Positions 2,517 to 37,470 of a DNA stretch of 64,000 bases are shown piece after piece. The position numbers were made by a program, and so were the translations under genes. Within the stretch, counting starts at the first letter, position 1. The number at the start of each line of letters is the position of its first letter. A model generated the notes under the pieces. It searched no databases and had not been told where the DNA came from. It saw only the letters and a list, made by a program, of their open reading frames with translations. Source of the DNA: Streptomyces fungicidicus (GTDB lineage Bacteria; Actinomycetota; Actinomycetes; Streptomycetales; Streptomycetaceae); contig NZ_CP023407.1 of assembly GCF_003665435.1 (NCBI RefSeq), positions 5,815,501-5,879,500 of the forward strand, read 5' to 3'.

Positions 2517-4064
2517 ATGACGGCAGACCGAGAGAACCCCGTGATCAGAACTCCGTACGGAGCCGTGCGCGGACGCTGGGACCGGCAGGTGGCCGTCTTC
2601 CGGGGCATCCCCTACGCGGCGCCCCCGTTCGGCCCCCGCCGCTTCCGCCCCCCGGCCCCGCCCGACCCCTGGGACGGCGTCCGCGAGGCCGCCGCCTTCG
2701 GACCGACGGCGCCGAAGCCCCCGTACTCGGAGGCCTTCGCCCAGTACCTCTCCGACCCTGCCGTCCCCGGCGACGACTGCCTCAACCTCAACGTCTGGAC
2801 CCCCGACCCCGCCCCCGGCGCCCGCCTCCCGGTCCTCGTCTGGCTCCACGGCGGCGCCCTCACCAGGGGCTCCTCTGCGGTCCCCGTCTACGACGGCCAC
2901 ACCTTCGCCCGCGACGGCGTGGTGTTCGTGTCGGTCAACTACCGCCTCGGAGTGGAGGGTTACGGCCTCTTCCCGGACGCCCCCGCCAACCCCGGCCTGC
3001 GCGACCAGCTCGCCGCCCTGCGCTGGGTCCACGAAGCGGTCGAGGCCTTCGGCGGCGACCCCGGCCGCGTCACCCTCGGCGGCCAGTCCGCCGGTGCGAT
3101 CAGCACCGGCGCGCTCATCGCCGCCCCGCAGGCGCGCGGCCTGGTCCGCCGGGCCGTCCTGCAGAGCGGCCCGCCCGAGACCACGGACCGCGACAAGGTC
3201 CGCCGGATGGTCCGCCGCATGGCGAACCGCCTGAAGGTCCCCGCCACCGCCGAGGCCTTCGCCGCCGTCGACCGAGAACAGCTGCTCCGCGCCCAGGCCG
3301 ACGTGAGCCGCCTCAGCAGCCCGGTGCTCGGCGGCCCCGCCTTCGGCATCGTCGTCGACGGCGACCTGGTCCCGCGCGACCCGCTGGAGGCGCTCACCGA
3401 CGGCGCGGCCCCCGGCGTCGAGCTCCTCACCGGCTGGACCCGCGACGAGTACCGCCTCTGGCTAGTCCCCGGCGGCCTGGTGGAACGCGTCGACCGCCTG
3501 GGCGCGGTCGCCCTCGCCGGCGCGATGGCCCGCTGCCGCTGCGGCAGCGAGGTCCCGCGCGGCTACCGCGCCCTGCACCCGGACGCCGGCACCTCCACGC
3601 TCGTCGGCCAGCTGGTCACCGACCACCTGCTCCGCGTCCCGCTGCACCGCCTCGCCGACGGCCGCGGCGACCCCTCGTACGTCTACGAGTTCGCCTGGCC
3701 CTCCCGGCGCCCCGGCATGGGCGCCTGCCACGCCCTCGAACTGGGCTTCGTCTTCGACAGCGGCAACGAGCCGGACGCCCGCAAACTCGCCGGCGAGGGC
3801 GCCCCGCAGGACCTCGCCGACGCGATGCACGGGGCCTGGGTCCGCTTCGTCACCGACGGCTCACCCGGCTGGGAGCGCTGGAACTCCCGGCACCCGGTCC
3901 GGATCTACGGCGACGGCGCACCCCGTACGGCATACGGCCCCCGGGACCGCGAACTCGCCCTCTGGGCCGCGCCCGCCGCCGGGGAACCCGCCCCCGCCAC
4001 GGCCCCGGAACTCCGCTCGGTCATACGCCGCCTGCGCCGCAGCGGCGCCCTCCGCCGCCACTGA
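2517..4064 (+). CDS. Type-B carboxylesterase (alpha/beta hydrolase)
   Basis: 515 residues, normal for the COesterase family. The N-terminal TPYGAVRGRW and FRGIPYAAPPFGPRRF blocks, the oxyanion-hole motif LVWLHGGAL (about residue 107) and the nucleophile elbow GGQSAGA (serine near 191) are all present; GACHALELGFVF near residue 400 supplies the catalytic histidine. No signal peptide is visible, so an intracellular esterase is expected. Related proteins include para-nitrobenzyl esterases. It is divergent from the LacI regulator across a 170-base gap with an operator-like palindrome, suggesting control by that regulator. Confidence 0.92.
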   Translation: MTADRENPVIRTPYGAVRGRWDRQVAVFRGIPYAAPPFGPRRFRPPAPPDPWDGVREAAAFGPTAPKPPYSEAFAQYLSDPAVPGDDCLNLNVWTPDPAPGARLPVLVWLHGGALTRGSSAVPVYDGHTFARDGVVFVSVNYRLGVEGYGLFPDAPANPGLRDQLAALRWVHEAVEAFGGDPGRVTLGGQSAGAISTGALIAAPQARGLVRRAVLQSGPPETTDRDKVRRMVRRMANRLKVPATAEAFAAVDREQLLRAQADVSRLSSPVLGGPAFGIVVDGDLVPRDPLEALTDGAAPGVELLTGWTRDEYRLWLVPGGLVERVDRLGAVALAGAMARCRCGSEVPRGYRALHPDAGTSTLVGQLVTDHLLRVPLHRLADGRGDPSYVYEFAWPSRRPGMGACHALELGFVFDSGNEPDARKLAGEGAPQDLADAMHGAWVRFVTDGSPGWERWNSRHPVRIYGDGAPRTAYGPRDRELALWAAPAAGEPAPATAPELRSVIRRLRRSGALRRH

Positions 4065-34181: not shown

Positions 34182-35504
34182 ATGGGCAGCCGTACCGCGC
34201 TGGTCGAGGATCTGATGGAGCGGTTCCCGCACGTGCCGCGCGAGGCCGTGTTCAAGGAGGACCTGCTGCGCGGCGGTGTGGCCTTCGATCCGTCCGCGCT
34301 CAGTGACAACGAGGGCGGTGACGTCAAGCCGAAGTCGTACTTCATCTTCTCCTTCGACCACGGCACCCTGCCCGAGCTGGGCGAGGCCGCGCTGCGGCGC
34401 CCGCCGGAGGAGATCATCCTCACGGGCGGCCCCTACGACCTGCGCCGTACGGTCGTGTCGGTGCGCGTGAACCCGGCCTCCCCCTACCGGGTGGCCGCCG
34501 ACGAGCACGGCATGCTCGGCCTGTACCTCGACGGCAAGCGGATCTCGGACGTCGGCGTGCCGCCCATGCCCGAGTACTACCGGCACACCCTGTCCAACGG
34601 GAAGTCGGTGATGGAGGTCGCCCCCACCATCCAGTGGGGATACCTGATCTATCTGACCGTCTTCCGGGTCTGCCAGTACTTCGGCGCCAAGGAGGAGTGC
34701 CAGTACTGCGACATCAACCACAACTGGCGCCAGCACAAGGCGGCCGGCCGGCCCTACACCGGGGTGAAGGACGTCGAGGAGGTCCTGGAGGCCCTGGAGA
34801 TCATCGACCGGTACGACACGGCGAAGGCCTCCACCGCCTACACCCTGACCGGCGGCGCCATCACCAGGACCGTCTCCGGACGCGACGAGGCCGACTTCTA
34901 CGGCCACTACGCCAAGGCCATCGAGGAGCGCTTCCCCGGCCGCTGGATCGGCAAGGTCGTCGCCCAGGCGCTGCCCAAGGACGACGTGCAGCGCTTCAAG
35001 GACTACGGCGTGCAGATCTACCACCCCAACTTCGAGGTGTGGGACGAGTACCTCTTCAAGATGTACTGCCCCGGCAAGGAGCGTTACGTCGGCCGTGACG
35101 AGTGGCACCGGCGCATCCTCGACTCCGCCGACGTGTTCGGCGCGCGCAACGTGATCCCCAACTTCGTCGCGGGCGTGGAGATGGCCGAGCCCTTCGGCTT
35201 CAAGACCGTCGACGAGGCGATCGCGTCCACCACCGAGGGCCTGCGCTTCTTCATGTCGCAGGGCATCACGCCCCGCTTCACCACCTGGTGCCCCGAGCCG
35301 ACCACCCCGCTCGGCAAGGCCAACCCGCAGGGCGCGCCGCTGGAGTACCACATCCGGCTGCTCCAGGCGTACCGGCAGACCATGGAGGACTTCGGCCTCT
35401 CCTCGCCCCCCGGATACGGTCCGCCCGGACCCGGCCGCGCGGTGTTCTCCGTCAGCTCCTTCATGGACAGCCTCCCGGCGCAGGAGCCCGCCGAGGCGGT
35501 CTGA
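34182..35504 (+). CDS. Radical SAM-like protein with CX8CX2C motif
   Basis: 440 residues. A cysteine triad CQYFGAKEECQYC (about 164-176) sits where radical SAM enzymes bind their 4Fe-4S cluster, but with spacing CX8CX2C instead of CX3CX2C. Later blocks fit the TIM-barrel fold: YTLTGGAIT resembles the GGE motif that holds SAM, and QIYHPNFEVWDEYLF and VIPNFVAGVEM follow as barrel strands. The actinobacterial homologues I know of lack an assigned function. The ATG is preceded by GGAGGAGAAC. No peptide substrate or partner is adjacent; a strong terminator follows. Confidence 0.85.
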   Translation: MGSRTALVEDLMERFPHVPREAVFKEDLLRGGVAFDPSALSDNEGGDVKPKSYFIFSFDHGTLPELGEAALRRPPEEIILTGGPYDLRRTVVSVRVNPASPYRVAADEHGMLGLYLDGKRISDVGVPPMPEYYRHTLSNGKSVMEVAPTIQWGYLIYLTVFRVCQYFGAKEECQYCDINHNWRQHKAAGRPYTGVKDVEEVLEALEIIDRYDTAKASTAYTLTGGAITRTVSGRDEADFYGHYAKAIEERFPGRWIGKVVAQALPKDDVQRFKDYGVQIYHPNFEVWDEYLFKMYCPGKERYVGRDEWHRRILDSADVFGARNVIPNFVAGVEMAEPFGFKTVDEAIASTTEGLRFFMSQGITPRFTTWCPEPTTPLGKANPQGAPLEYHIRLLQAYRQTMEDFGLSSPPGYGPPGPGRAVFSVSSFMDSLPAQEPAEAV

Positions 35505-35618: not shown

Positions 35619-35626
35619 AAGCGCTT
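35619..35626. promoter_or_regulatory. AAGCGCTT palindrome upstream of the CBM2 fusion gene
   Basis: The same eight-base palindrome found in the lacI-esterase gap recurs here, in the context GGGAAGCGCTTGTC, about 105 bases before the next gene. LacI-family regulators bind such centres. A short match can be chance, so confidence is limited. Confidence 0.35.
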
Positions 35627-35730
35627 GTCAGTTGTGTCGGGGACGTGAAAGGCTCGGCCACTGCCGCGAGGTTTTCCCCAACTCCACAGCCAGTATGGCG
35701 AGTTGACCTCGTTCGTGATGCGGGAGACTC

Positions 35731-37215
35731 ATGCCCGACCTGCCGAGCCCCCAGGACGCCACCGAGGCGGCGCTGTTCACCGAGTGCTGGGACGCGGCGC
35801 TGTCCTACGCCGACCTGTGCACGGCCGGCTCCGCCGCCGCCGCGGAACTCGCCCGTGAGGCCTTCGAACAGGGCATACGGGAGCTGCGCGCCGCGGAGTC
35901 GGCCACCGTCCGCGGCCACGGCCGCCGTTCCGCCCGGCTGCCCCGGATACCCCTGCTGCTGACGGCCGTTCGCAGCACCGCGGCCGCCTGGGAGGAGGCC
36001 GGAAAGGGCCACAAGCTCGACCCCGACCTGCGCCTGTGGCTCCACTCCGACCAGGCCGCCCGCTACACCGGCCCGCCACTGGAACGCCCGGTCGCCCTGC
36101 GCGGACTGCGCGATCTGCAGCACGCGGACGCCGAACTGCTGTGGCTCGCCGAGGCGGAGGCCCTGCCGCTGCCCCTGGTGGCCCGCCGGCTCGGCCTCGA
36201 CCCCGCCACCGCGGCCGACGAACTCGCCCAGGTCGGCCGCATGTTCCGGGACCGCTGCCACCGCAACCACCTCGACTCGCCCCTGGACGCCGAGTGCCGC
36301 AGCTACGCACGGCTGCTCGACGCCGTCACCCGCTCGCCCGCCGCGGACACCCCCGACGACCTGTCCCGGCACCTCGCCACCTGCCACCCGTGCGCCGAGG
36401 CCGCCGCCTGCCTGCGGCTGCACGGCGGGGGACTGCCCGGAGCGCTGGCCGGCGGGGTGATCGGCTGGGGCGGCCTCGCCTACCTGGAACGCCGCCGCCG
36501 CGCCGCCGAGGTACGCCTCGGGGCCGGACGCCCCGACCGTGCCGACCCGGACACCGGTGACCCGGCGCACCCCGCCGGCCGGACCCGGATCGCCCGGCAC
36601 GGCCCGCTGGTCGCCGCCGTCCTGGTGTCCCTGCTCGCGCTCGCCGTCTCACTGATGCCGTTCGGCGGCGACACGGCCGACGACGGCGCCGGACGCGCCG
36701 ACGCCGACCGGCAGCCGGTGGCCGACCCCGGACCCTCGCTCCCCGCCGCGCCCACCGCCGGCCCCTCCGACACCCCGTCCCCCGAGCCGTCCCGCACGCC
36801 CACCCCGGACAGCCCCGCGGACCGGCAGATCCCCGACCCCGAACCGCAGGGCACCTCCTCCGCCACCCCCGCGCCCGAGACCACCGGCCGCGGCGCCCCG
36901 GCCGCCTGCCGGGTCGACTACGCCCTGGTCAACCAGTGGCCCGACGGATTCCAGGCCGCCGTCACCGTCACCACCCGGGACCCCCTCGCGTCCTGGCGCG
37001 TCGGCTTCACCTTCCCGGACGGCCAGCGGGTCACCCAGACGTGGGACGGCTCGGCGCACCAGGACGGGGCCGCCGTCACCGTCACCGCCGCCGACTACAA
37101 CAAGTCGGTCGCCGCGGGCGGCAAGCTCGCCTTCGGCTTCCTCGCGTCCTGGAGCGGAGCCAACCGCCCGCCGTCCGGCTTCACCCTCAACGGACGGACG
37201 TGCGCGGCCGTGTGA
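35731..37215 (+). CDS. Sigma-like / zinc-finger / TM / CBM2 fusion protein
   Basis: 494 residues. The first 190 residues look like a diverged ECF sigma factor: an acidic helical segment, then LPLVARRLGLDPATAADELAQVGRMF, a region-4-like helix-turn-helix. HLATCHPC (near 213) is an HxxxCxxC anti-sigma zinc finger. One clear transmembrane helix (about 290-312, LVAAVLVSLLALAVSLMPFG) and a Pro/Ser/Thr-rich linker lead to a C-terminal cellulose-binding CBM2 domain (about 391-491, bounded by two cysteines; ASWRVGFTFPDGQRV, ASWSGANRPPSG). It should expose CBM2 outside and the DNA-binding part inside. Start has GGGAG. Confidence 0.85.
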   Translation: MPDLPSPQDATEAALFTECWDAALSYADLCTAGSAAAAELAREAFEQGIRELRAAESATVRGHGRRSARLPRIPLLLTAVRSTAAAWEEAGKGHKLDPDLRLWLHSDQAARYTGPPLERPVALRGLRDLQHADAELLWLAEAEALPLPLVARRLGLDPATAADELAQVGRMFRDRCHRNHLDSPLDAECRSYARLLDAVTRSPAADTPDDLSRHLATCHPCAEAAACLRLHGGGLPGALAGGVIGWGGLAYLERRRRAAEVRLGAGRPDRADPDTGDPAHPAGRTRIARHGPLVAAVLVSLLALAVSLMPFGGDTADDGAGRADADRQPVADPGPSLPAAPTAGPSDTPSPEPSRTPTPDSPADRQIPDPEPQGTSSATPAPETTGRGAPAACRVDYALVNQWPDGFQAAVTVTTRDPLASWRVGFTFPDGQRVTQTWDGSAHQDGAAVTVTAADYNKSVAAGGKLAFGFLASWSGANRPPSGFTLNGRTCAAV

Positions 37216-37336: not shown

Positions 37337-37408
37337 ATGGCTGTCACCGCGCCGGGCGCTGCCCGCATCAGGGAAACCGTCACGTCCACCTCCGTGGCCA
37401 CCGGCTGA
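37337..37408 (+). CDS. 23-aa leader ORF upstream of rsgA
   Basis: ATG at 37337 is preceded, nine bases away, by an excellent GAGGAGGTG ribosome site. The frame has 23 codons (begins MAVTAPGAARIRETV) and stops at 37408, 62 bases before rsgA. The initiation signal is stronger than that of rsgA itself, so the ORF is probably translated. No transmembrane or known peptide motif is visible. A role as a leader peptide in the control of rsgA is possible. Confidence 0.5.
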   Translation: MAVTAPGAARIRETVTSTSVATG

Positions 37409-37470
37409 CCTCACCCTTTCCCGCGCCCACGCGCGGCCGCCGGGGCCACCCCACCTGAAGGGTCACCCCC

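Follow-up and report, generated by a model that had tools for sequence, protein, structure and literature searches.

The window analysed here, a stretch of 64,000 nt from the 7.67-Mb genome of Streptomyces fungicidicus, contains a gene for a single protein in which a sigma-like part, a zinc anti-sigma (ZAS) domain, a transmembrane (TM) helix and an outside carbohydrate-binding module (CBM2) follow one another. The protein is a member of the fused sigma/anti-sigma/lectin class, which is known but has hardly been studied, and falls into a separate clade within it. The best explanation of its features, in which our confidence is about even, is a one-component sigma receptor that would be released by proteolysis and would regulate its own gene through its own promoter. 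The gene and its product are laid out as follows.

35731..37215, + strand: coding sequence of the fused sigma-like / ZAS / TM / CBM2 putative receptor, 494 aa (ORF call, 45 orthologs)
35764..36060, + strand: sigma2-like region, about residues 12-110 (ECF52 profile match by hhalign)
36082..36276, + strand: sigma4-like region containing the helix-turn-helix, about residues 118-182 (ECF52 profile match by hhalign)
36286..36435, + strand: ZAS domain, ligands C189, H214, C218 and C221 (45/45 orthologs)
36601..36663, + strand: single TM helix, about residues 291-311 (hydropathy)
36667..36894, + strand: Pro/Ser/Thr-rich outside linker, about residues 313-388 (sequence)
36907..37203, + strand: CBM2, residues 393-491, with W403/W438/Y456 and the cysteine pair C393/C491 (Pfam)

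An ORF check bore out the reading frame at 35731-37215 (+), 494 aa, and the one-protein architecture proposed for it in the earlier note is supported, matching a published class (SCO4117/ECF52, ECF48/52/53) as the available text of two sources describes it (PMC5826349, PMC8999054). The HxxxCxxC finger named in that note is present and belongs to a complete ZAS motif, C189-x24-H214-x3-C218-x2-C221, which is kept in 45/45 orthologs and whose four ligands are invariant in a 25-member superfamily alignment; the Pfam zf-HC2 model (pfam13490) gave no match to the ZAS of the window protein. The single TM helix also holds, since hydropathy exceeds 1.6 solely in windows starting at residues 287-297, with a peak of 2.54 for the 19-residue window that starts at residue 293, an Arg-rich stretch before it and an acidic one after it. 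Beyond sigma4, the C-terminal extension of about 309 residues contains this one TM helix, the Pro/Ser/Thr linker, evident in the sequence, and the C-terminal CBM2 (Pfam E 3.2e-27, residues 393-491), the latter two just as previously described.

The nearest CBM2 structures in the PDB are those of exoglucanase/xylanase CBM2 (6qfs, E 1.3e-23; 1exg, E 5.2e-23), with which W403, W438 and Y456 align at the W of NQW, the W of TQAW and the W of APW, respectively. These three residues, along with C393 and C491, are kept in 45/45 orthologs, and their counterparts are what we take to be the cellulose-binding face of CBM2a. The ligand of the outside domain would most likely be cellulose, and possibly chitin. 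With its aromatic residues intact, the protein could be imagined as mainly a cellulose surface adhesin with a vestigial cytoplasmic part, but we regard this as very improbable given that the cytoplasmic part is both better conserved and more constrained than CBM2. In an alignment of 45 distinct orthologs, mean identity to the window protein is 0.88 for ZAS, 0.81 for both TM and sigma4, 0.79 for sigma2, 0.73 for the stretch preceding the TM helix, 0.65 for CBM2 and 0.44, the lowest value, for the linker. Median pairwise dN/dS (12 orthologs, 66 pairs) is 0.21 for sigma2, 0.23 for sigma4, 0.15 for ZAS and 0.29 for TM, compared with 0.71 for the linker and 0.64 for CBM2. The sigma-like part and ZAS are under stronger purifying selection than CBM2, and values of 0.15-0.23 against 0.64 indicate that the cytoplasmic part is not decaying. 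The earlier description of a degenerate ECF-like N-terminus is therefore half right: the ECF-like character stands, by profile match, while "degenerate" is misleading for a part more constrained than CBM2.

Among 246 genomes of the genus Streptomyces, 193 hold some match to residues 1-250, 96 hold a match of at least 60% identity (the window's own genome counted) and six more hold one at 52-56%. A class-wide draw gave matches in 41 of 246 genomes, those better than E 1e-8 all being of the same genus, and the eight named relatives found were likewise all Streptomyces. The window genome itself (G000) carries a second family member (L109, G000:C1:654649-655500), in which a ricin-type lectin replaces CBM2.

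Recognition of the sigma-like part depends on distant homology. At E<=1, the window protein is matched by none of the sigma models of Pfam and NCBIfam, and CBM2 is its sole Pfam match. When the window clade was aligned to ECF52 sigma domains with hhalign, the match reached 97.3% (E 2.5e-11) over 164 columns, end to end, and covered residues 10-185; the reversed control and 20 column-shuffled controls gave at most 0.6%. By profile alone, the case is strong that residues 10-185 are a distant homologue of sigma2 plus sigma4. An ECF52 profile searched against the PDB finds solved ECF sigmas (SigE and 6dxo), and the window-clade profile searched against PDB sequences found no sigma match and one match at chance level. 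The structural comparison of residues 1-190 with sigma factors suggested in the earlier note did not end in the outcome that would have refuted its reading, a lack of any structural match, but it was a weak test: an AlphaFold model built with nine close orthologs is of low confidence (pLDDT 47.1), and Foldseek with this model put ECF sigmas at the top of the list (SigL 6dv9, E 0.033), a weak result with none below 1e-3. One segment of the low-confidence model matches region 4 of SigR (5fgm) with a TM-score of 0.82 by target at E 0.89. In hand-picked stretches, the net charge of region 2.3/2.4 is 0 in the window protein versus +2/+3 in two sigma-positive relatives, and that of the helix-turn-helix is +2 versus +1/+2.

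The missing model matches and the lower positive charge in region 2.3/2.4 could mean that the sigma-like part is no longer a sigma and has become a membrane-tethered DNA- or protein-binding domain, serving as a decoy or a one-component regulator. We consider this unlikely, as sigma2 and sigma4 are constrained alike (0.21 and 0.23) and ZAS is fully kept. Sigma70_r2 is recognised in 7 and Sigma70_r4_2 in 8 of the 25 members of the superfamily alignment, whose outside domains are CBM2 (8), ricin-type (10), NPCBM (6) and LamG-like (1). Single scans found a ricin-type lectin in 14/14 proteins of the CBM13 clade, three of which (L102, E 1.6e-4; L097, E 0.023; L098, E 0.04) also have sub-threshold Sigma70_r4_2 matches at the expected position. 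NPCBM together with Sigma70_r2 was found in all 15 ECF52-like proteins scanned, of 16 in the set; judging from the published domain list, this set would be SCO4117's group. Domain scans further identified L080 as a CBM2 protein and L066 as a short frame that has sigma domains but lacks an outside one. In the tree, a 100/100 clade of eight ECF52-like rows excludes the window protein, and CBM2 proteins form one clade of 17 rows. Among the best 150 of 461 candidates in the window genome, an ECF52-type protein matches only the CBM13 paralog.

The following features lie upstream of the gene.

34182-35504, + strand: radical-SAM gene (NCBIfam NF045502 variant_rSAM)
35619..35626, + strand: AAGCGCTT palindrome, overlapping the start of the promoter-like element; incidental
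35624..35655, + strand: promoter-like element CTTGTC-N15-GTGAAA-GGCTC (upstream alignment, pattern counts)
35667..35711, + strand: leader hairpin CGAGGT..CAACTC..GCC/GGC..GAGTTG..ACCTCG (covariation)
35722..35726, + strand: ribosome-binding site GGGAG (sequence)

The palindrome noted earlier upstream of the gene does exist, but it does not stand as a conserved regulatory site, since only 4/45 orthologs carry it within 150 nt upstream; AAGCGCTT was accordingly dropped as a conserved operator. The hint that a LacI-type operator at this palindrome (35619-35626) controls the gene draws on a second AAGCGCTT palindrome at 2369-2380, which lies between a LacI-like regulator (1264-2346, -) and a carboxylesterase-like gene (2517-4064, +), both named by eye. 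Given the count of 4/45, we find this the hardest of all readings to credit.

The promoter-like element is a different matter. Its bipartite form, CTTGTC-N15-GTGAAA, ends 80 nt before the ATG, and the sequence GCTTGTCAGTTGTG-N7-CGTGAAA(A/G)G..CTC is almost unchanged in most of 45 aligned upstream regions. At loci chosen by protein similarity alone, the strict pattern CTTGTY-N16-TG[AC][AG]A was found in 47 of 50 window-clade loci, and a loosened pattern, written after strict forms had missed some rows (L015, L106, L107), in all 50. The element was also present at L013, outside these 50, in 7/7 further held-out orthologs and in 6/6 members at 52-60% identity (0.04 expected). As the variant CTTGTT-N14-TGTGCRA, it is shared by 11/14 paralogs of the CBM13 clade (0.15 expected for these plus L080), and the second family member of the window genome likewise has a CTTGTT-type element upstream. 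It was found at none of 16 ECF52-like loci, searched up to 1400 nt upstream, nor at four other CBM13 loci, L066 or L067. It was also not found at the diverged CBM2 members L080, L095 and L096, whose place in the tree is on the element-bearing side. In the unrooted tree, a 95/91 branch sets every element-bearing row apart from the ECF52-like and remaining rows. By eye, a CBM13 subclade (L081, L082, L087) seemingly has its own shared upstream element (CCGCGGAAACnC...CCACyATG).

Across 16 genomes, the pattern CTTGTYN16TGMRARRG gave 50 exact matches versus 20 for a reversed-pattern control, and 44 of these exact matches are followed by a family gene on the same strand, with 123-395 nt from the start of the element to the first profile-aligned codon. 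Classed by the form of the element, 43 of these 44 are CTTGTT; a single match comes from the window's clade because most sites of that clade end in GC, not RG. Of the six matches lacking a family gene, L146 appears by eye to lie inside the reading frame of a GTPase-like gene. In the window genome, a pattern that fixes two further bases and allows one mismatch gave 3 matches versus 4 for the control, so that its specificity there rests on position and not on count: the three are the window gene, the CBM13 paralog and one other place. The long form at up to three mismatches found the window gene alone, with 0 for the control. The window and CBM13 clades differ at positions 6 (C/T), 21 (C/T), 32 (C/G) and, largely, 25 (A/C), all of which the search patterns left free; the letters fixed by the patterns, like position 30 in the majority of CBM13-clade sites, carry no evidence because the sites were chosen with the pattern.

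The element is probably a dedicated, autoregulatory promoter. It can also be read as a TTG -35 followed by an extended TGn -10, which would suit a housekeeping sigma. It is possible, if less probable than the preferred reading, that the receptor is as described and that transcription of its gene depends on a housekeeping sigma (TTGTCA plus extended -10) or on another dedicated regulator, in which case the promoter would be uninformative about the specificity of the sigma part. TTG, TGn and A/T at hexamer positions 2/6 do resemble an extended -10, with the A fixed by the pattern, but position -12 is not T in any of the 45 aligned orthologs or the 11 CBM13-clade sites, 44 of the 50 pattern matches belong to one protein family, and the variants of the element track the protein clades. 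Core sequences with correct spacing and up to two mismatches were not found beside three other CBM2-protein matches, out of 12 counted in the genome, and the one further core site in the 64-kb window (61495, -), with two mismatches, does not stand out from mis-spaced controls; no target genes were found beside those three matches or in the window.

Between the promoter-like element and the ribosome-binding site, 10 nt before GGGAG, the leader contains a hairpin that is conserved by compensatory change. In 44 distinct rows, 96.2% of the hairpin cells pair, and two-sided changes occur at 6/15 pairs (12 cells), a level of covariation reached in 0 of 500 shuffles, which ignore relatedness; slid controls gave 0-4 pairs. 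A covariance model searched against 12 genomes, with the best 150 candidates considered per genome, placed the hairpin at the ortholog start in 10, with E below 1e-3 at ortholog starts only and the next best at 0.0017. The two misses are genomes with the 52-56% type, and four of the ten positives (G007, G009, G116, G213) had contributed no row to the model. The core pattern also appears in 5/7 held-out orthologs. Fold z-scores of four single sequences are modest (-0.5 to -2.5), and an Rfam search of the leader returned two matches, both far below the cut-off. The repeat as a DNA operator is less likely than an RNA hairpin because G-U cells keep RNA pairing and break DNA symmetry. A role in translation control may be suggested.

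The gene was said to stand alone, and indeed there is no separate sigma or anti-sigma gene adjacent to it, its neighbours being the radical-SAM gene upstream and rsgA downstream. The radical-SAM gene is present at 44/46 loci of orthologs with at least 60% identity, the window's own included, and is itself at least 90% identical in 43 of those 44; in the DNA around each of five loci of 52-56% orthologs it was not found. It has no known link to the receptor. Directly before rsgA there is a 23-aa reading frame at 37338-37409 (+) (MAVTAPGAARIRETVTSTSVATG), which has a strong AGGAGG site; 7 of 12 other loci examined have a counterpart of 22-23 aa. The frame ends in a sequence similar to the beginning of RsgA and is a possible leader peptide.

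In the mechanism that we favour, the cytoplasmic sigma2-sigma4-like part would be clamped by the adjoining zinc anti-sigma domain, with the TM helix as anchor and a long Pro/Thr linker that puts CBM2 in contact with wall material or with insoluble polysaccharide. By analogy with SCO4117 and IutY, engagement on the outside would lead to membrane proteolysis and free the sigma part, which may then recruit RNA polymerase at CTTGTC-N15-GTGAAA sites, above all that of its own gene (positive autoregulation) and perhaps those of other targets. This explanation is favoured by the ZAS motif and CBM2 residues kept in all 45 orthologs, the ECF52 profile match with its controls, the constraint on sigma and ZAS, the element at family genes with its clade variants and 95/91 branch, and the Sigma70_r4_2 matches in the CBM13 clade. 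It is also favoured by the truncation data for SCO4117 and the published release model, as given in the available text (PMC5826349, PMC8999054). Counting against it are the lack of a sigma model match, the charge of 0 in region 2.3/2.4, the low-confidence structure model, the lack of the element at L080, L095 and L096, and the lack of a target. A broader and more tentative proposal, which we would at present rather doubt than believe, is that Streptomyces has a clade of sigma receptors tethered to the membrane, most of which sigma-factor models do not see, each with a co-diverged private promoter almost only at its own gene; these would be self-amplifying surface-contact switches whose translation is gated by the leader hairpin. 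If the favoured explanation is true, the little-studied fused ECF receptors would extend to members that sigma models miss. The candidate promoter makes the questions of ligand, release and regulon testable with a reporter, and the clade-specific variants of the element would represent a natural experiment on a sigma factor and promoter diverging together.

Several known systems resemble this protein in part. RsgI works with separate sigma-I proteins, unlike the window protein, whose sigma-like part is in the same chain, whose cytoplasmic inhibitor would be a ZAS and which has no adjacent sigma gene. In Clostridium thermocellum, RsgI is described in the available text as a membrane anti-sigma that senses polysaccharides on the outside and signals through proteolysis (PMC12203970). 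Closer in architecture is SCO4117 (ECF52) of Streptomyces coelicolor, which according to the available text combines an ECF sigma, a zinc finger, a TM helix, a proline-rich stretch and a carbohydrate-binding module in one chain, and for which proteolytic release of the sigma part has been proposed and truncation data exist (PMC5826349). The zinc finger motif, TM helix and proline-rich stretch are shared by the window protein. Unlike ECF52, it has no recognised sigma domain (TIGR02937 / Sigma70_r2), carries CBM2 and not NPCBM (smart00776) and falls outside the ECF52 clade of the tree; its gene adjoins radical-SAM and RsgA genes, unlike SCO4117 beside atrA, and has the promoter-like element, unlike the 16 ECF52-like loci. 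Binding-triggered release of sigma has been proposed for the fused class, in the text available (PMC5826349, PMC8999054), and glycosyl hydrolase and carbohydrate-binding domains are predicted in some of the ECF52/53 proteins, a prediction that the available text describes as lacking experimental validation (PMC10766802). The available text of PMC5826349, PMC8999054 and PMC10766802 gives no description of the CBM2 clade, the element or the leader. ECF53 and ECF48 are reported, in the part available, to have a C-terminal fusion with a zinc finger, one to two TM helices and extensions of up to 400 residues, and no promoter or leader is given for them there (PMC8999054). The window protein is like ECF53 in its C-terminal ZAS, one TM helix and extension of about 309 residues, a comparison made by description. 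Finally, IutY of Pseudomonas putida, which responds to the siderophore aerobactin and for which the available text mentions no carbohydrate-binding domain, unlike the window protein, is a sigma fused to a membrane anti-sigma and freed by regulated proteolysis, as established experimentally (PMC8999054). Like IutY, the window protein joins a sigma-like part to a membrane anti-sigma domain.
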